A stretch of 38,915 nt of DNA from Bacteroidota bacterium. Lineage in GTDB: Bacteria; Bacteroidota; Bacteroidia; UBA7662. The stretch covers positions 1 to 38,915 of the forward strand of contig SYHW01000006.1 in the NCBI GenBank assembly GCA_005799065.1, written 5' to 3'. Shown here piece by piece: positions 8,178-30,764 of this stretch (position 1 is its first letter; each line of letters begins with the position of its first letter). The notes under the pieces are model-generated. The model worked only from the letters and a program-made list of their open reading frames with translations. It was not told where the DNA came from and did no database searches. Made by a program: the position numbers and the translations under genes.

Positions 8178-9866
8178 CGTTCCGACTAATTTGACGCGCA
8201 CCGCATCGAGCAGTATGGGTTCAATTTCCAAACACTTTTGAAGTAGACGATCGGCCTCCTGGCGAAATTCAGCTGATTTCTTTTGGTCGGCCAAACTGCC
8301 CGCGTTGATGGTGACATTCATCCACGCGCCATAAACAGCGCTTCGGATGCACAATACGGCCACGCCCACATCCGATACGGAGTTTGGGTTACCCTTTTCG
8401 ATGAGTTCTTGAATGGGATCGAGGCAGGCAAGCGCCATTTTCATGGTTTCGAGGGGCACATGGGTCGCATAGACCGTTGCTTGCTCGATTCGTTGCTTGC
8501 GTTCCGCTTTTTCTTCCTCCGAGCTTTTGGGCAATCCAAAGGCATTCATGATGCCATCAAAAGCACGGGTATCTTCATCGACCTTACGCAAGAGGAGTTC
8601 CTTTTGCTTTTGGCAAGTCCGTGCTAGTTCGCTAAACCGATCCAAGTGCGCTTCCCATCCCCTTTTACCCGCCGACAAATTGGCTACCATGGCACCAAGC
8701 GCAGCAGCCAGTGCCCCAACGGCCGCTGAGATTGAACCGCCTCCGGGCGCCGGGGATTCGCTCGCTGTTTCGTCGGCAAGGTCTGAAAGAGATAAGTGTA
8801 TCAGCCTTTGGTCGGCACTTGAAGACATTTTGTATTCAATTATCCGCTCTTCGGGCTGGAAGGGTGAAAGTTCCGACAGTCCCATGGTGCGCACGGCGCA
8901 GTCGATGAGTTCTTTTTCCGAAACACCTTCACTGCGTCCCATTTTTTTAAGGAAATGCCGACCGGCGTCGACCAAACACGAAAGGGGTACGAGGCCGACC
9001 AATTCAGAACCTGTTACCCGAATACCCCGCGCAGTGGCCGCACGCACCACCTCATCAAACGCCATATGCAAAGGAGTTTGCATTAAATCGGTGAGATTCA
9101 TGGAGATCTGCGCCGTTTTGTATTCTTCTATATACCATCCCACAGCCTTTACCGCTTTTAACGTGCCGGGTATGCGCAGCGGTTGTCCATCCTCACCCAC
9201 CATAATTTTACCGGTTATGGGGTGACCCTCACGCTTCACCCTTCCGGCTTCGCGTACATCGAAGGCAACCGAATTGGCCAGGCGAACCGATGGTGTGTTA
9301 AGATTGATGTTGTAAGCAACCAGAAATGGGCGCGCCCCGATCACTGTGGCACCTGTTTGCGCATTAAATGTACTTGGCCCAAAATCAGGCTTCCAGTTGG
9401 GGTCTTTCAGCTTGGCGGGTAGTCCTTCGTATTCGCCTGCGCGGATATCGGCCAGATTTTTGCGCGACGGCTGGGTTGCCGATGATTCGTAGAGGTAGAC
9501 AGGAATATTGAGCTCCTCGCCCACTCTTTTTGCCAGTTTTCGGGTATATATAACGGTTTCTTCCATACTGATGCCCGAAATCGGAATGAATGGGCAAACA
9601 TCGGTAGCGCCCATGCGTGCGTGTTCGCCTTGGTGTTGCCGCATGTCGATAAGGCGTCCGGCGACGGAAATGGCTTTGAATGCGGCTTCCACCACCGCTT
9701 CGGGATGTCCTACAAAGGTATACACGGTTCTGTTGGTGGCCTTACCTGGATCGCGGTGGAGTAATCGGACACCTTCGGTACTGGAAATCGCAGCGCTGAT
9801 CTCGTCGAGTATGCGCAGGTCGCGCCCTTCCGAAAAGTTGGGCACGCATTCGATGATTGGATTCAT
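8175..9866 (-). CDS. ftcD: Bifunctional glutamate formimidoyltransferase / formimidoyl-THF cyclodeaminase
   Basis: A 563-residue protein from the ATG at 9866 (MNPIIECVPNFSEGRD). The ORF-track start seven codons earlier would lie within the promoter. Residues ~1-320 are the two-subdomain formiminotransferase (ECVPNFSEGRD, HARMGATDVCPFIP, GARPFLVAYNINL); residues ~345-560 are the helical cyclodeaminase (ESPAPGGGSISAAVGALAAALG). The first domain passes the formimino group of N-formimino-L-glutamate to tetrahydrofolate; the second releases ammonia to give 5,10-methenyl-THF. This is the last step of histidine breakdown in some organisms. The fused form and length match the family. hutHUI are not adjacent, so it is a lone gene here. 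A near-perfect -7 box (TATATTTG) ends 4 nt before the ATG. Confidence 0.95.
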   Translation of the reverse strand: MNPIIECVPNFSEGRDLRILDEISAAISSTEGVRLLHRDPGKATNRTVYTFVGHPEAVVEAAFKAISVAGRLIDMRQHQGEHARMGATDVCPFIPISGISMEETVIYTRKLAKRVGEELNIPVYLYESSATQPSRKNLADIRAGEYEGLPAKLKDPNWKPDFGPSTFNAQTGATVIGARPFLVAYNINLNTPSVRLANSVAFDVREAGRVKREGHPITGKIMVGEDGQPLRIPGTLKAVKAVGWYIEEYKTAQISMNLTDLMQTPLHMAFDEVVRAATARGIRVTGSELVGLVPLSCLVDAGRHFLKKMGRSEGVSEKELIDCAVRTMGLSELSPFQPEERIIEYKMSSSADQRLIHLSLSDLADETASESPAPGGGSISAAVGALAAALGAMVANLSAGKRGWEAHLDRFSELARTCQKQKELLLRKVDEDTRAFDGIMNAFGLPKSSEEEKAERKQRIEQATVYATHVPLETMKMALACLDPIQELIEKGNPNSVSDVGVAVLCIRSAVYGAWMNVTINAGSLADQKKSAEFRQEADRLLQKCLEIEPILLDAVRVKLVGT

Positions 9867-21221: not shown

Positions 21222-22119
21222 ATACCAGCGTTCACTGGCCGAACTTCACTTGGTGGTCTTCATCTGGGGGTTTACCGCCATTTTGGGTAAGTTAATTAGT
21301 GTTTCTGCGCTCGACCTCACCCTCTACCGGATGCCCGTGGCCTTGATCGCGATGTGGGCCTATACCCAATGGCGTGGTGGACTCCCTGGCCTACCCTTTC
21401 GGGCACGTTTGGCGCTTTGGGGCACCGGACTCATCATTGCCTTGCATTGGCTCACCTTTTACCACGCCATCAAAATTTCGAATATTTCCGTTACCCTAGC
21501 TGGCTTTTCATCCGGCGCCTTCTTTGCTGCATTGTTCGAACCGTTGATCGAAAAAAGACGGGTTCGCCGTTCCGAACTGGGACTGAGTCTGGTGGCCATT
21601 GTGGCCCTCTACATTATTTTCAGAGCGGAAAACGGGTTTGCTGGGGGTATGCTGATGGCGGTTTTTTCTGCTGCTCTATCGGCCTTATTTGCCGTGCTGA
21701 ATGGTCGATTTGCACGCACCTATCCTCCAAAAGCGGTGGCCATTCACGAAATGCTCGGTGGATGGCTGGGTGTTGTGCCGGTATGGCTCTTTTTGGGCGT
21801 AAGCGGATCCGGTTTCCATGTCCCTACCCTTCAGGATTTAGGTTGGATTTTGGTCTTGGCCTTGGTTTGTACGGCCTATCCATTCTTGGCCAGCATTCGG
21901 CTCATGAAGCAAATCTCAGCCTTTACCCTTGTGCTCACTGTGAATCTGGAACCCCTTTATGGTATTGCATTTGCCCGACTCATTTTCGGAGAATCAGAGC
22001 ACATGAGTGACGCCTTCTACGTCGGGACTATGATGATCTTATTGAGTTTATTGATCAACGGATGGCTGAAAAGCCGGAAAAACCGCGTCGGCGACCTTAC
22101 ACCAGACGTGCTCTCTTGA
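21205..22119 (+). CDS. DMT-superfamily (EamA) transporter
   Basis: A 304-residue protein with about ten transmembrane helices in two EamA repeats. Marks: ELHLVVFIWGFTAILGKLIS (helix 1), DLTLYRMPVALIAMWAY, LHWLTFYHAIKISNISVTLAGFSS, and in the second repeat EMLGGWLGVVPVWLFL and AFTLVLTVNLEPLYGIAFARLIFGE, the usual helix 8-9 signature. EamA proteins export or import small metabolites; the substrate is not visible. No ATG is available at the start: the options are GTG at 21205 or TTG at 21208, both within the last codons of the LptF/G gene, so translation is probably coupled. The 3' end overlaps the convergent DUF58 gene by 23 bp. Confidence 0.9.
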   Translation: MLRLSKYQRSLAELHLVVFIWGFTAILGKLISVSALDLTLYRMPVALIAMWAYTQWRGGLPGLPFRARLALWGTGLIIALHWLTFYHAIKISNISVTLAGFSSGAFFAALFEPLIEKRRVRRSELGLSLVAIVALYIIFRAENGFAGGMLMAVFSAALSALFAVLNGRFARTYPPKAVAIHEMLGGWLGVVPVWLFLGVSGSGFHVPTLQDLGWILVLALVCTAYPFLASIRLMKQISAFTLVLTVNLEPLYGIAFARLIFGESEHMSDAFYVGTMMILLSLLINGWLKSRKNRVGDLTPDVLS

Positions 22120-23008
22120 GCAAATAAGGCATGAGTACTTGTGCAAAGCCAAGGTTGGCGTCGGCTTCTATAAAATCAATACGGTATTGGCGGCAGCGCA
22201 GCATCAACTCTTGCCTAAAATCTGCTGCTCTTTTTCTGTAGGCATCCTGTATACCTGCCGGATTGAGGCGTATTTCCTCGCCCGACTCCATATCGATGAA
22301 CAGGTGCGGTCGGTTTTCATAGTCGAGTTGCAGCTCCTTTGGTTGATCCACCACATGAAAAAGGAGCACTTCGTGTTTGTTGTAGCGGAGGTGACCCAAG
22401 GCCGCATATAATTCCTCAGAAGATGTTCCGGGTTCGAACATATCGGAAAAGAGTATGATCAGCGACCGTGGCGGCGCGGTGTCTGCCACTTGGTGGAGTG
22501 CCTGAACAGCCCGCGTACTTTGTTTGGGCTCAGGTTGTTGCAAAACCGATTCCAGTTGTGCCAACAACAGTTTGTGGTGGGCAGCATGACCGCGCGCGCG
22601 GAGCGATAAATTCACATGCTCGTCGAATAGAGTGAGTCCGACCGCATCCCGTTGGCGTTTCAGAAGATTCATAAGGGCGGCGCAGGCATACACGGAGAAC
22701 CTCATTTTGCTTCGGCTGTTCTCCGGAAAATACATGGAGGCCGAGGTGTCTAAAACCAATTGGCAACGTAAATTGGTTTCTTCCTCGTATCGCTTAACGT
22801 ATAAACGCTCACTGCGGGCAAACAACTTCCAATCGATGTTACGGGTCGATTCCCCCGTATTGTAGAGTCGGTGTTCAGCAAATTCAACCGAAAAACCATG
22901 ATAAGGGCTTTTGTGGAGACCGGTGATGAAGCCTTCCACCACTTGCCTGGCAAGAAATTCTAGTTTGTCGATGCCCTCAAGGGTTTTCAGATCGAGTGTT
23001 TCGGCCAT
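22097..23008 (-). CDS. DUF58 protein with vWA-like C-terminal region
   Basis: A 303-residue cytosolic protein. The DUF58 core is clear: GFSVEFAEHRLYNTGESTRNIDWKLFARSERLYVKRYEEET. It is followed by a vWA-type MIDAS-like strand, CQLVLDTSASMYFP, and later SLIILFSDMFEPG. DUF58 proteins often sit beside MoxR-type AAA ATPases in bat operons; here neither a MoxR ATPase nor bat genes are adjacent. Function is not established for stand-alone members. A perfect minus-strand -7 box (TATTTTTG) ends 5 nt before the ATG, pointing to its own promoter and a near-leaderless mRNA. The last 23 bp overlap the convergent EamA gene. Confidence 0.9.
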   Translation of the reverse strand: MAETLDLKTLEGIDKLEFLARQVVEGFITGLHKSPYHGFSVEFAEHRLYNTGESTRNIDWKLFARSERLYVKRYEEETNLRCQLVLDTSASMYFPENSRSKMRFSVYACAALMNLLKRQRDAVGLTLFDEHVNLSLRARGHAAHHKLLLAQLESVLQQPEPKQSTRAVQALHQVADTAPPRSLIILFSDMFEPGTSSEELYAALGHLRYNKHEVLLFHVVDQPKELQLDYENRPHLFIDMESGEEIRLNPAGIQDAYRKRAADFRQELMLRCRQYRIDFIEADANLGFAQVLMPYLLKRARLV

Positions 23009-26837: not shown

Positions 26838-27509
26838 ATGAACTCCGTCCTATGGCTCAATGCCCGTTTCATTCTACTCGGTTTTATGATTTCACTGTTC
26901 TCGCTGTTGAACGCTTGCAAGCCCGATGAACCCGAACCACCGAAAACCGAATCCATAGTAGTGCGTGATCTCCCTGCAGACACCATTATCGGGCTCACAC
27001 CTGGAACTCCCCCGACCGGCGGCATTCCTTTTGGTGCAGGCAAATTCACTTTCTACAGCCTGGAGAACAATACAGTAGTACCTTCCACTGACAGCGCCAG
27101 CAACAAATGGGACTTAGCTTTTAGGGGCACTACCATTTTCACCAACAGCGGCAGCAGTGGACCCGGATTGGGTGGTGCCTTTGTTTGGAACGGACTATTC
27201 GACGAGCTATTCTCGATTTCCTTAGATTCGACATTTAATGCCGACAATGCACCTAACTATGGAATTCCCACCGGCAGTGGTCGTGGCTGGTATACCTACT
27301 CGCAGGCCGAACAATTGGTAAGACCTATTCCCGGTAAGGTGCTCGTGGTGCGTACTGCCATGGGCAAATATGCCAAAGTTGAAATTCTAAATTACTACAA
27401 GGGCGGAATAACACCCGCAGTTACCGAGCCCGATTCGATCAAATACAAACTGCAGCGCTACTATACATTCCGATATCGCATACAAAAAGACGGCAGCAAG
27501 AATTTCTAA
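26838..27509 (+). CDS. hmuY: HmuY-family lipoprotein (heme-binding family)
   Basis: A 223-residue lipoprotein: FMISLFSLLNACKPDEPEPP carries the lipobox LNAC. Beta-rich body with HmuY-family marks: GAGKFTFYSLENNTVV, ASNKWDLAFRGTTI, SGRGWYTYSQ, GKYAKVEILNYYKG and a late YYTFRYRIQKDGS. In Porphyromonas gingivalis HmuY takes heme from host proteins and hands it to HmuR, using two histidines. This protein has no histidine at all and only one methionine (in AMGKYAK) in the mature part, so heme would have to be held differently or another ligand is bound. It lies 62 bp after the TonB receptor gene, same strand, forming a two-gene operon. A ~37-bp repeat begins 12 bp after its stop. Confidence 0.85.
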   Translation: MNSVLWLNARFILLGFMISLFSLLNACKPDEPEPPKTESIVVRDLPADTIIGLTPGTPPTGGIPFGAGKFTFYSLENNTVVPSTDSASNKWDLAFRGTTIFTNSGSSGPGLGGAFVWNGLFDELFSISLDSTFNADNAPNYGIPTGSGRGWYTYSQAEQLVRPIPGKVLVVRTAMGKYAKVEILNYYKGGITPAVTEPDSIKYKLQRYYTFRYRIQKDGSKNF

Positions 27510-27521
27510 TTTCGCACCTTC

Positions 27522-27558
27522 TTTTTCAAAACAAGCTTGTTGGGCTTCGCGCTTTTCT
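27522..27558. repeat. Left ~37-bp direct repeat bounding the vWA islet
   Basis: A T-tract, CAAAA, then CAAGCTTGTTGGGCTTCGCG and a short T-rich end. The near-identical copy in the same orientation is at 29530-29567 (one extra A, one T/A change). It contains the palindrome AACAAGCTTGTT. The two copies enclose exactly the two minus-strand genes of the islet. Confidence 0.9.
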
Positions 27559-27572
27559 GCACCCCCAATACG

Positions 27573-28661
27573 CTATTCCCAGTGCACCCATTCTCGATCG
27601 AGTCCGATTCGGTATGGCTCATTTCTGCGTCCTGAGATATAATAATACTCAGCTATGTCCGCCCCCACGGCCAGTACAAAAGCCCTCTTAATCCGGGTTA
27701 ATGATTCTGTAATACCACCAGTTCCGGGTTGAACCAAATTCTCAATGGTCGTTCGAACGGCTTCTTGATCTTTGTTGGGGTTAAGATTCTGATAAATTCT
27801 TCTGAGCTCAACCTGATGATCCACCAAATCATTCAAAACCACGCCCTCAGGATGTTTCAGGAAAAATAAAAATACGGCTCTATTCAATGGAGCTAATTCG
27901 AATAGGGTATCACCCATGTCCGTAAATTTGATTTCTTGTCCATTTCTTGATATACACAAACTACTGGGTTGCTTGGTAAATGTGAAGCGCGATCGAAACA
28001 ACATATGTGTTCTCACCAAATCCATATAAGCGATGACTTGGCGCACGATATTCTTGTCCGATACATGAACATTGATCCGTTGTGCACATGCTGAACAGAT
28101 GTCGGCCGTTCTTAATTTATACTGAATTCCGCGTTTATCCCGGTTAAAATCATTCATGCATCCTATGGATTCCGGGTGAACGATGTCCTCCATTTCTTCC
28201 AAATTCCTGGCCATGAAATGCCGTAGTAAATTTGTCACGATTTGATATACAACGGGAAATCTCCATTCGCCGTGGGCGAAGACCCCCCAACCAGAAGTTT
28301 GCACAAACATATTTCGGGCTCCCGACAGATCTGGTGCAGAAAACCAGTTCAATTCGTTGGCATAATCGGTTAACAACACCACGAATTCGTTTTCGCCTAT
28401 GTCATTTTGTTGACGGAAGGTCCGACAAACATTAAAGAGTGTTTCCCAAGAAACGCTGGGTAAATCGGTTGATGAATGAAAGTCATGCCGCTTTTTGGAA
28501 CCCTTTCTCTCCATGAATCCTAAACCTTCGGCACGAAGTTCAACACCTTGGTCTCTTTGTTTCACAAACTGGATGGTTCCTTTAATCGTTTGCAGCAAAT
28601 CCAACAAGCTATCATAACGCTCCAGACCAATTTCTTCGGAATACAACAGATGTACGCGCAT
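27573..28661 (-). CDS. Unrecognised Cys-rich protein with C-terminal winged-helix-like domain, partner of the vWA gene
   Basis: A 362-residue protein I cannot name with certainty. Three parts can be seen. Residues ~1-120 are alpha/beta (FVVLLTDYANELNWFSAP). Residues ~135-197 read VVYQIVTNLLRHFM, then HPESIGCMNDFN and ADICSACAQRI; the order of a helix, then a Cys-Met segment, then CxxC resembles the metal-site region of archaemetzincin-type peptidases, but the HExxH catalytic motif is absent, so any such fold would be inactive. Residues ~250-362 look like an OmpR-type winged helix (LFELAPLNRAVFLFFLKHPEGVVLNDLV ... ESLTRIKRAFV) with a conserved-looking GLDREWVHWE end. No signal peptide or membrane helix. 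It lies 73 bp downstream of the vWA gene on the same strand, and both sit between direct repeats. A DNA-binding regulator or conflict-system role is inference only. Confidence 0.75.
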   Translation of the reverse strand: MRVHLLYSEEIGLERYDSLLDLLQTIKGTIQFVKQRDQGVELRAEGLGFMERKGSKKRHDFHSSTDLPSVSWETLFNVCRTFRQQNDIGENEFVVLLTDYANELNWFSAPDLSGARNMFVQTSGWGVFAHGEWRFPVVYQIVTNLLRHFMARNLEEMEDIVHPESIGCMNDFNRDKRGIQYKLRTADICSACAQRINVHVSDKNIVRQVIAYMDLVRTHMLFRSRFTFTKQPSSLCISRNGQEIKFTDMGDTLFELAPLNRAVFLFFLKHPEGVVLNDLVDHQVELRRIYQNLNPNKDQEAVRTTIENLVQPGTGGITESLTRIKRAFVLAVGADIAEYYYISGRRNEPYRIGLDREWVHWE

Positions 28662-28703
28662 TGTTTTTTAATTGTTAAATATTTATGAGCCCTAGGCTAC
28701 TTT

Positions 28704-28741
28704 AATCTATGCGTTTTGTCTCAATCTATGCGTTCTATTTC
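28704..28741. repeat. Two-unit 19-bp tandem repeat overlapping the vWA stop codon
   Basis: AATCTATGCGTT recurs at 28704 and 28723 (19-bp period); the rest of the unit is similar. The vWA gene's stop (CTA on the plus strand, 28735-28737) lies in the second unit. Confidence 0.8.
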
Positions 28742-29421
28742 AGTTTTAGCTTTTTTTCATAAACAATCTTCGAAAATTCAGAAGAGAGAAAACTCATTGA
28801 ATTGCTCACCTCGGCCTTCTTAGAAGAAAATACATTCGACCGATTGAAATGGATACGGCTGGCCAAATCCCAGGCATCGATGTCCGCTCCTACAAAAGTG
28901 AATGTCCATCGGTTGTCGGAACCCAATTGCTTGATCTTTCGGCCAATTTGATCATAGGTATAACGCTTCGATGCATTTTCAAATCCATCGGTATAAATAA
29001 CCACCATAGCATTGGCATTGTGGTGCTCAAGATCATGGCGAAGCAGATACTGCATGCGTTCAATGACGGTTCCTGCCGCATCCAGTAGGGCGGTCATACC
29101 CCCCAATTGGTAGTCTGCTTCTGTTAAGGGCCGGAGTTCTGAGGCCGGACGTTGTTCGAAAATCAACTCGGGTTCATCATTGAATACCGTTAACGACACA
29201 TAGATTGGAATTTCAGGATGTTCCGCCTGGGTGGCTCGAATGCTATCAAACTTCGTGTTTAGGGCCTGTAGAATTTCAACATAATGAGACTCCATGCTTC
29301 CACTCTTATCGAGGATCATGTGGTAATGTGTTGCATTGTGGGCAAAAGTCGGAATGCCCGTCGGGTTCTCTGTGGTGTTTTGCAGATTTTCGTTGGTAAG
29401 TAGGGGGCTTTTTGTGTTCAT
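28735..29421 (-). CDS. von Willebrand factor type A domain protein
   Basis: A 228-residue cytosolic protein that is essentially one vWA domain after a ~30-residue flexible N-terminus. The metal-ion-dependent adhesion site is complete: DKSGS (Asp38, Ser40, Ser42), the Thr in GGMTALLDA (Thr110) and the Asp in IYTDGFENAS (Asp145). The form is close to TerY-like and phage/plasmid-type stand-alone vWA proteins, which act as Mg2+-dependent protein-binding scaffolds. It is the first gene of a minus-strand pair with the unrecognised Cys/wHTH protein. Composition looks AT-richer by eye than rlmI and hmuY on either side. No kinase, PP2C or MoxR ATPase is adjacent, so this is not a canonical TerY-P or MoxR-vWA locus. 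Confidence 0.9.
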   Translation of the reverse strand: MNTKSPLLTNENLQNTTENPTGIPTFAHNATHYHMILDKSGSMESHYVEILQALNTKFDSIRATQAEHPEIPIYVSLTVFNDEPELIFEQRPASELRPLTEADYQLGGMTALLDAAGTVIERMQYLLRHDLEHHNANAMVVIYTDGFENASKRYTYDQIGRKIKQLGSDNRWTFTFVGADIDAWDLASRIHFNRSNVFSSKKAEVSNSMSFLSSEFSKIVYEKKLKLK

Positions 29422-29503
29422 GGGGATGTTATAAGATTAAAGGTTAAAGAAGAGTTCCGTGTGCGCAACATAAATTTGCTGATTCTTGTTGGTTAACACG
29501 ATG

Positions 29504-29511
29504 CAAAGATG
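29504..29511 (-). promoter_or_regulatory. -7-like box (CATCTTTG) for the vWA two-gene unit
   Basis: One mismatch from TAnnTTTG on the minus strand, followed by C. It lies about 80 nt upstream of the vWA ATG and inside the right-hand direct repeat, so the islet seems to carry its own promoter. Confidence 0.35.
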
Positions 29512-29529
29512 CGCTAACCATAAACCGCA

Positions 29530-29567
29530 TTTTTCAAAAACAAGCTTGTTGGGCTTCGCGCATTTCT
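29530..29567. repeat. Right ~38-bp direct repeat bounding the vWA islet
   Basis: Second copy of the 27522-27558 repeat, same orientation, about 2.01 kb away. It ends 15 bp before the rlmI ATG, so it abuts the rlmI promoter region, while the left copy starts just after the hmuY stop. Confidence 0.9.
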
Positions 29568-29582
29568 ATCTATTTTGGAGCC

Positions 29583-30764
29583 ATGTATCCCAAACTCATC
29601 CTTCAAAAAGGCCGGGAACGGCCTGTGTTGCTTGGTCATCCCTGGATTTTTAGCGGTGCCGTATTGACCGGACCTCAGGCCTCAGAGGGCGACATTGTGG
29701 CCGTTTGCGATCACAAGCAACAATTGCTCGCCCATGGGTTTTACAGTCCCGCCAGCCAAATCCGATGCCGGCTTTTCGATTTCTCCTCCCAAACAAGTGC
29801 AAGATTTGGTGATGACTATTGGAAACATCGAATCCTCCAGGCCCTGGCCCTACGTCGCCCCTGGTTTGACCCCGAACACACCAACGCTTATAGACTCATG
29901 CATGCCGAAGGTGACCGAATGCCGGGCGTAATCGCCGACGCCTATGATCAATCTGTGGTGGTTCAATTGTTGATTCGGGGAAGTGAACGGCTGCTTCCGA
30001 TCTTAGCGTCGACCTTGAATGAAGCAGGCTTTAAGCATCTCTATCTCAAACAAAAAAGCATCACCCGACACATTGAGGGGCTACAGCAAGAATCGGGCTG
30101 GCTAACCCCTCCCCCACCGATTTACCCCATAACTATTCGGGAGCACGACTGTCTGTTCGAAGTGGATCCGGTGGGTGGGCAAAAAACAGGGTTTTTTCTC
30201 GACCAGCGCGAGAACCGATGGCTGGTCGGTCAGTATAGCCAAAAACGACGTGTATTAAACGCGTTTAGCTATACGGGGGGTTTCAGCGTCTATGCACTCA
30301 AAGGAGGCGCAACCTCTGTGGATTCGGTAGATTCATCACAACCAGCAATTGACCAAGCGCAACACAATGCCCAATTGAACAATCTTCAAAAAAACCATCG
30401 GACCATCACGGCCGATTGCTTTGATTTTCTGAAGCAATCGAAACCCAGTGAATACGACATGATGATCCTTGACCCCCCTGCATTTGCTAAAAAAGCAAGC
30501 GCTGTACCCAATGCGCTGCGTGGCTACAAGGAACTAAACTTAGAAGCCATGCGTAAAATTGCACCCGGTGGACTATTATTCAGTTTTAGTTGTTCACAGG
30601 CCATTGACCCCCTGCTGTTCCGCAAGATGCTCTTTGGCGCTGCGGTCGATGCGCGCCGACAGGTGAGGCTTCTCCATTATTTGGGTCAGCCTGCCGATCA
30701 CCCGGTCGATATCGGTCACCCCGAAGGCGAATACCTCAAAGGATGGCTCATGGCGGTTGATTAA
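29583..30764 (+). CDS. rlmI: RlmI-type class I SAM rRNA (cytosine-C5) methyltransferase
   Basis: A 393-residue protein with an N-terminal PUA domain (residues ~1-75, LILQKGRERPVLLGHPWIFSGAV) and a C-terminal Rossmann methyltransferase. Marks: VDPVGGQKTGFFLDQRENR, the SAM-binding turn VLNAFSYTGGFSVYALKGGA, the acidic strand SVDSVDSS, motif IV DPPAFAKKASAV and the late SFSCSQ segment with the catalytic-type Cys. RlmI makes m5C1962 in E. coli 23S rRNA; the YccW/RlmI family as a whole has this layout. A TATTTTGG-like box ends only a few nt before the ATG. Convergent with secDF through a shared terminator. Confidence 0.93.
   Translation: MYPKLILQKGRERPVLLGHPWIFSGAVLTGPQASEGDIVAVCDHKQQLLAHGFYSPASQIRCRLFDFSSQTSARFGDDYWKHRILQALALRRPWFDPEHTNAYRLMHAEGDRMPGVIADAYDQSVVVQLLIRGSERLLPILASTLNEAGFKHLYLKQKSITRHIEGLQQESGWLTPPPPIYPITIREHDCLFEVDPVGGQKTGFFLDQRENRWLVGQYSQKRRVLNAFSYTGGFSVYALKGGATSVDSVDSSQPAIDQAQHNAQLNNLQKNHRTITADCFDFLKQSKPSEYDMMILDPPAFAKKASAVPNALRGYKELNLEAMRKIAPGGLLFSFSCSQAIDPLLFRKMLFGAAVDARRQVRLLHYLGQPADHPVDIGHPEGEYLKGWLMAVD

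Follow-up and report, generated by a model that had tools for sequence, protein, structure and literature searches.

What kind of locus are two adjacent minus-strand genes that sit closely between direct repeats of about 37 bp, and what are the repeats? A sequence-only reading of the window (the whole stretch of DNA analyzed, 38,915 nucleotides [nt]) had taken the pair, a vWA protein and a partner that we call P1, for a mobile islet inserted between hmuY and rlmI. The window corresponds to contig C36 of a genome (G000) of 1.86 Mb and 69 contigs, estimated to be 85% complete, and the relatives recovered are Bacteroidota. The features referred to below, with the basis of each assignment, are as follows.

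26838..27509, plus strand: hmuY (PF14064), left neighbor; Pfam match
27522..27558, strand not assigned: left 37-bp repeat copy, immediately 3' of P1, a predicted second operator copy without a target gene; repeat and operator comparison
27573..28661, minus strand: P1 gene, 362 amino acids, metzincin-like domain without HExxH plus winged helix; predicted structure
27576..27974, minus strand: P1 residues 230 to 362, OmpR-type winged-helix domain; model and fold matches
28086..28178, minus strand: P1 residues 162 to 192, conserved His and Cys cluster, with Asn173 in place of one of four Cys; family alignment
28735..29421, minus strand: vWA gene, 228 amino acids, complete MIDAS; domain match, alignment of relatives, and fold
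29504..29507, minus strand: putative -7 box (TTTG) for the vWA-P1 promoter, at +41 relative to the palindrome; aligned sites
29531..29567, strand not assigned: right copy of the 37-bp repeat, including the predicted operator of the vWA-P1 operon; repeat and operator comparison
29539..29550, strand not assigned: palindrome AACAAGCTTGTT, the window version of TTRCAAG[C/G]TTGYAA; motif comparison
29583..30764, plus strand: RlmI-like methyltransferase gene, right neighbor; domain match

The islet is present in two species and absent from a congener

Both repeat copies were found as described, flanking the two genes and differing by one A indel and one T/A substitution. The 23-nt core of the repeat, with up to three mismatches allowed, occurs at only two places in the 1.86-Mb genome, both of them the islet repeats, which rules out chance or a common dispersed element, a possibility that the sequence-only reading had raised against itself. 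In the congener G003, hmuY is joined directly to rlmI (TAA-AATTCTGTATATTTTGGAGTC-GTG, from the hmuY stop to the rlmI start), and both the cassette and the repeat are entirely missing from this junction; the two genes are thus not fixed at the locus in all relatives. A second relative, G001, matches the contig at about 90% identity. Its own contig covers rlmI, the right repeat, and the larger part of the vWA gene before breaking off inside that gene, so the islet is common to two species. On the simplest reading, the islet was probably gained in the ancestor of G000 and G001, with loss from G003 as a possible alternative. The earlier proposal that the pair was gained here agrees with the empty site in G003 and with base composition: the GC content is 43 to 45% in the islet genes versus 49 to 52% in most flanking genes (hmuY, the TonB receptor gene, and rlmI), with 48% in secDF.

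In the congener G002, the interval from the DUF58 gene to rlmI has collapsed; on contig C7 of this genome (around 9300 to 9720), the amylase, TonB-receptor, and hmuY region is gone, and rlmI is a decaying pseudogene interrupted by several stop codons. In the window, the DUF58 protein (22097 to 23008, minus strand) has a vWA domain of its own and is unrelated to the islet; DUF58 proteins with vWA domains are usually partnered with MoxR ATPases. Within the islet, a 19-nt unit, AATCTATGCGTTTTGTCTC, occurs twice in tandem (28704 to 28741) between the stop of vWA and the start of P1.

An intact MIDAS protein paired with a predicted metzincin-like winged-helix protein

The complete MIDAS attributed to the vWA protein was confirmed: D38, S40, and S42 (the DxSxS motif), T110, and D145 are all present and are invariant among 43 aligned relatives. 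The vWA fold is confident, with integrin I domains matched at an E value of 1e-9; an ArnB paralog and the ArnAB complex are also among the matches of that search. A diverged vWA paralog elsewhere in the genome (contig C38, 15328 to 15915) adjoins a phosphoribosyltransferase-like gene, with neither P1 nor an operator, and is kept across the genus.

P1 has no match in Pfam, neither protein matches any PADLOC family, NCBIfam and PHROG matches to P1 are at chance level, and P1 has no sequence relative in the PDB. The structure prediction that had been called for yielded an AlphaFold2 model with a mean pLDDT of 91.6, comprising a metzincin-like domain and a winged helix. Foldseek placed mostly metzincins first, among them ADAM-8 (4dd8; probability 0.97), as weak matches with an E value of 0.02 and TM scores below 0.5, and it matched the C-terminal domain to the OmpR-type domain of AdeR (5x5l) with a probability of 0.91, a target TM score of 0.64, and an E value of 0.25. 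A search of the model against a viral fold library gave no confident match. No phospho-receiver domain was found, there being no Pfam match and the N-terminal fold being metzincin-like.

The zinc motif HExxHxxGxxH/D is absent from P1 relatives, with HExxH in 0 of 54, and 52 of the 54 have a C-x4-C-x13..17-C-x2-C cluster. The window protein has N173 in place of one of the four family cysteines (Cys in 52 of 54). The model and the alignment together well suggest that the N-terminal domain is metzincin-like and catalytically dead. When the P1 and archaemetzincin (M54) profiles were compared, the His and the CxxC aligned with a score that was not significant, and the comparison gives no significant support for archaemetzincin ancestry. 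Of the earlier description of P1, the absence of HExxH, the CxxC region, and the winged helix have thus held up, the metzincin-like fold is suggested by weak matches, and the archaemetzincin resemblance has not reached significance.

A profile search located P1 at 69 loci in named genomes, all from Bacteroidota or their relatives, as judged from record titles, and none in viral contigs; at an E value of ≤1e-5, the protein is present in 31 of 395 Bacteroidia genomes, a few of these matches covering part of the protein. Phage or plasmid cargo was considered and rejected: no phage or viral contig gave a match, and two plasmid matches span the winged helix only.

The vWA and P1 families are co-inherited across Bacteroidota

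The check on genomic co-occurrence proposed earlier gave a positive answer, the two families occurring together across Bacteroidota. Among the 62 loci with at least 900 nt of sequence upstream of P1, 49 have a vWA gene upstream on the same strand, and the gap between the genes is commonly 30 nt or less, or the genes overlap. A close vWA homologue was found in seven of the nine other relatives with P1 (one of them truncated); among relatives without P1, only two have one, and one of these is G001 with its broken islet. The distances between P1 proteins and between vWA proteins are correlated (r = 0.77 for 37 loci), and none of 1,000 permutations reached this value. The vWA and P1 families are co-inherited. 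At two further loci (L047, contig C68 of G004, and L233, contig C12 of G226), the vWA gene is convergent with a gene for a protein of about 410 amino acids that shares the winged helix alone with P1, possibly a second kind of vWA/winged-helix pair.

DUF6717 (PF20475) is the commonest Pfam family among 150 neighbors, with genes within 4 kb of 18 of the 69 loci. At four loci (L096, L098, L101, and L103), a match to the DUF6717 profile falls within the vWA protein itself, and for L096, the vWA-DUF6717 fusion was confirmed with Pfam; gene fusion thus ties DUF6717 to the vWA partner. A literature search found no paper naming this family. At L114 (5591 to 9002), a single operator precedes a five-gene operon of two DUF6717 genes, a histone-deacetylase-like gene, vWA, and P1, which may be the module in its most complete form.

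A palindrome with fixed promoter geometry accompanies P1

The vWA-P1 operons of relatives are preceded by a palindrome, TTRCAAG[C/G]TTGYAA. It occurs 48 times in the 46.7 kb of operon-head and P1-end intervals, in comparison to 6 times in 326 kb of sequence more than 3 kb away, a density about 56-fold higher. Among the 50 loci with both flanks available, 41 carry it within the interval tested, and at four of the remaining nine (L078, L083, L113, and L114), it heads a longer operon or the P1-proximal one, for a total of 45 of 50. No site was detected at L063, L105, L110, or the P1 that G003 has of its own (L108). The window version, AACAAGCTTGTT, lies in the right repeat, and its outer bases deviate from the consensus; the G001 palindrome has the center CAAGGTTG.

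The Bacteroidetes -7 box is TAnnTTTG. A TTTG is found at +41 to +43 from the palindrome in 41 of 50 aligned sites (two of which are the window copies), compared to 0 to 6 in intervals of equal width, and in the right repeat it stands at +41. No TTTG was found at the place expected for a -33 element in the aligned palindrome sites. For a sporadic and unnamed Bacteroidota family, these results predict a DNA target in single-base detail, together with a fixed promoter geometry.

The site goes with P1. Nine loci with vWA paralogs and no P1 have no palindrome, and proteins having just the winged helix of P1 have no convincing site. At the five loci where P1 has no vWA gene in front of it (L087, L104, L115, L118, and L119), the site follows P1 on its 3' side by 13 to 53 nt, ahead of the next gene; where vWA is downstream of P1 (L075 and L111), the palindrome precedes vWA. 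Exact sites are rare in genomes. A site profile built from 39 sites was searched in the 395 genomes, and the eight best matches were all at vWA, P1, or DUF6717 genes, as were most of the matches below an E value of 0.004. This search is only partly independent, since many of the matches are loci that built the profile: G047, G056, G075, G017, and G255 are in the training set, and G411, G352, G173, G440, G277, and G389 are apparently outside it.

SOS control was considered and rejected, the palindrome fitting neither of the general Bacteroidetes motifs (GGA-N5-TCC and CTAA-N5-TTAG), and the matches listed in a literature search for the palindrome are unrelated oligonucleotides. Loci of two Rufibacter genomes have several operator copies within 17 kb (L102, at 3917, 7413, 7585, 9444, 12115, and 15525; L107, at 1902, 7854, and 13767), mostly intergenic and several of them ahead of genes, as if in a larger local regulon. 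The genome G397 (62% complete) has eight copies of an identical variant, TTGCAAGGTTGTAA, on different contigs and no P1 match; these are possibly a dispersed repeat.

P1 as the candidate regulator of its own operon

Computation establishes the pairing of the two genes, a conserved site that keeps its spacing and is linked to P1, the fold as predicted, and the empty site. On balance, we think it likely that the islet is an autoregulated two-gene vWA/pseudo-metzincin regulatory module, so far undescribed, with P1 acting on the palindrome. Of the two proteins, only P1 has a predicted DNA-binding fold, and we infer that it is the binder because the vWA loci without P1 lack the site and the site follows P1 when vWA is absent. 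It probably activates the vWA-P1 promoter, since the center of the palindrome is about 38 nt upstream of the -7-like TTTG and a -33 TTTG is missing. P1 would be a one-component transcription regulator, its dead metzincin-like N-terminal domain with the Cys cluster acting as the sensor and its C-terminal OmpR-type winged helix binding TTRCAAG[C/G]TTGYAA; bound about 38 nt upstream of the -7 box, as measured from the palindrome center, it would activate its own operon. The vWA protein probably gates P1 by touching the sensor domain, via the MIDAS or another face, and a signal sensed by either the dead metzincin domain or the Cys cluster would set the state of P1. We suggest more tentatively, as something possible rather than probable, that P1 founds a class of one-component regulators with a dead-metzincin sensor, gating by a MIDAS vWA partner, and a dedicated palindromic operator, and that DUF6717, histone-deacetylase-like, and NTF2-like genes join the module by taking on an operator copy, such that it would grow as operator-tagged cassettes.

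The two repeats would then both represent the operator region, one of them working ahead of the operon and the other lying 3' of P1. The left copy lacks the TTTG that the right one has at the promoter position; it sits where some other genomes have the promoter of the next gene, and no such gene is present here. The duplicated stretch is longer than the palindrome, and the operator alone does not account for the extra length, so the repeats likely arose by one segmental duplication. They could instead be the places where a small mobile element carrying vWA-P1 ends or attaches, with a recombinase acting in trans, as near-identical direct repeats exactly flanking the pair, the empty site in a congener, the lower GC content of the islet, and the sporadic distribution of the family would allow; the two repeats could still recombine. 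Against this, the sequence-only reading had expected excision to leave one repeat and rejoin hmuY to rlmI, and the G003 junction, the empty site examined, holds no copy, which weakens the case for element ends and leaves simple excision unsupported. No recombinase gene lies between the repeats, as judged from the islet genes and Pfam, so that neither mark of a transposon or integrative element (a recombinase gene or a one-repeat empty site) was found. Other islets do not, as a rule, have bounding repeats of this length: long flanking repeats occur only at L096 (40 nt) and, diverged, at L092 (62 nt), and the remaining high repeat scores are short or due to the shared palindrome, which rules out flanking repeats as a family trait. 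The conserved operator also accounts for the repeat core. We regard a mobile element as quite unlikely and as the weaker reading, ranking below that of a duplicated operator. Short direct repeats that flank a gained islet can thus stem from duplication of an operator instead of marking the ends of an element, which can mislead repeat-based islet finding.

The operator reading itself depends on P1 being the protein that binds. The palindrome might be the site of another host regulator or of an alternative sigma factor, with P1 acting elsewhere and merely sharing the operon: binding by P1 is a prediction from linkage and fold, its recognition-helix residues, inspected by eye, follow no clear rule of covariation with the operator type, and known Bacteroidetes regulators, such as SOS repressors, use palindromes. 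We nevertheless consider this unlikely, because the palindrome is rare beyond P1 operons, is missing from the vWA loci without P1, accompanies P1 even without vWA, and is unlike both SOS motifs. Still less probable, in our estimation, is a defense or conflict system that senses invasion and triggers a response, the role that had been suggested earlier beside one in stress. The distribution of the pair is sporadic, and WYL regulators, PemK-like toxins, methyltransferases, and helicases lie near some loci; however, neither protein has a PADLOC match, the pair is without an effector domain, there are no relatives in phages or viral contigs, and no PADLOC family occurs in more than 3 of the 150 neighbors, in a scan that covered near neighbors only. 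A defense island was likewise rejected, there being no recurrent system near the loci of relatives. The defense part of the earlier suggestion is therefore not borne out.

Comparison with known systems

By analogy, the module appears to work most like a two-protein vWA-partner regulatory module such as ArnA-ArnB, without being a member of that family. ArnA-ArnB, which represses motility in Sulfolobus, is likewise a two-protein system in which a MIDAS vWA protein is joined by a partner with a Cys4 zinc site (PMC6509490). In contrast to P1, ArnA combines a zinc finger with an FHA domain and has neither a metzincin-like fold nor a winged helix, and the archaeal system is driven by phosphorylation and has no shared operator (PMC6509490). 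By the criteria tested, the module is not an active metzincin, a response regulator, a vWA-MoxR system, or a known defense system. P1 resembles archaemetzincins (peptidase M54) in its predicted metzincin-like fold and in a Cys cluster spaced C-x4-C...C-x2-C, whereas HExxHxxGxxH is missing from all 54 P1 relatives, the spacing to the last Cys pair differs, and P1 carries a winged helix. OmpR/PhoB response regulators such as AdeR have a winged-helix DNA-binding domain of the same fold; unlike them, P1 has a metzincin-like N-terminal domain instead of a receiver, and its predicted site is palindromic rather than a direct repeat.

The vWA-MoxR ternary systems similarly place an intact-MIDAS vWA protein in a conserved operon (PMC7159879). 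The module differs from them in having a winged-helix partner and a conserved operator, with no conserved MoxR ATPase and no effector domains (PMC7159879): the islet contains no MoxR AAA+ ATPase, and AAA_5 occurs in 2 of the 150 neighbors of relatives. The PP2C phosphatase and protein kinase of the TerY-P triad are likewise absent from the islet and from the 25 commonest neighbor families listed. A further likeness, set beside P1 by its published description, is the clostridial CA_C2195 family, in which a metallopeptidase-like domain is combined with a circularly permuted winged helix and which its authors link to the synthesis of modified polysaccharides (PMC4000134).
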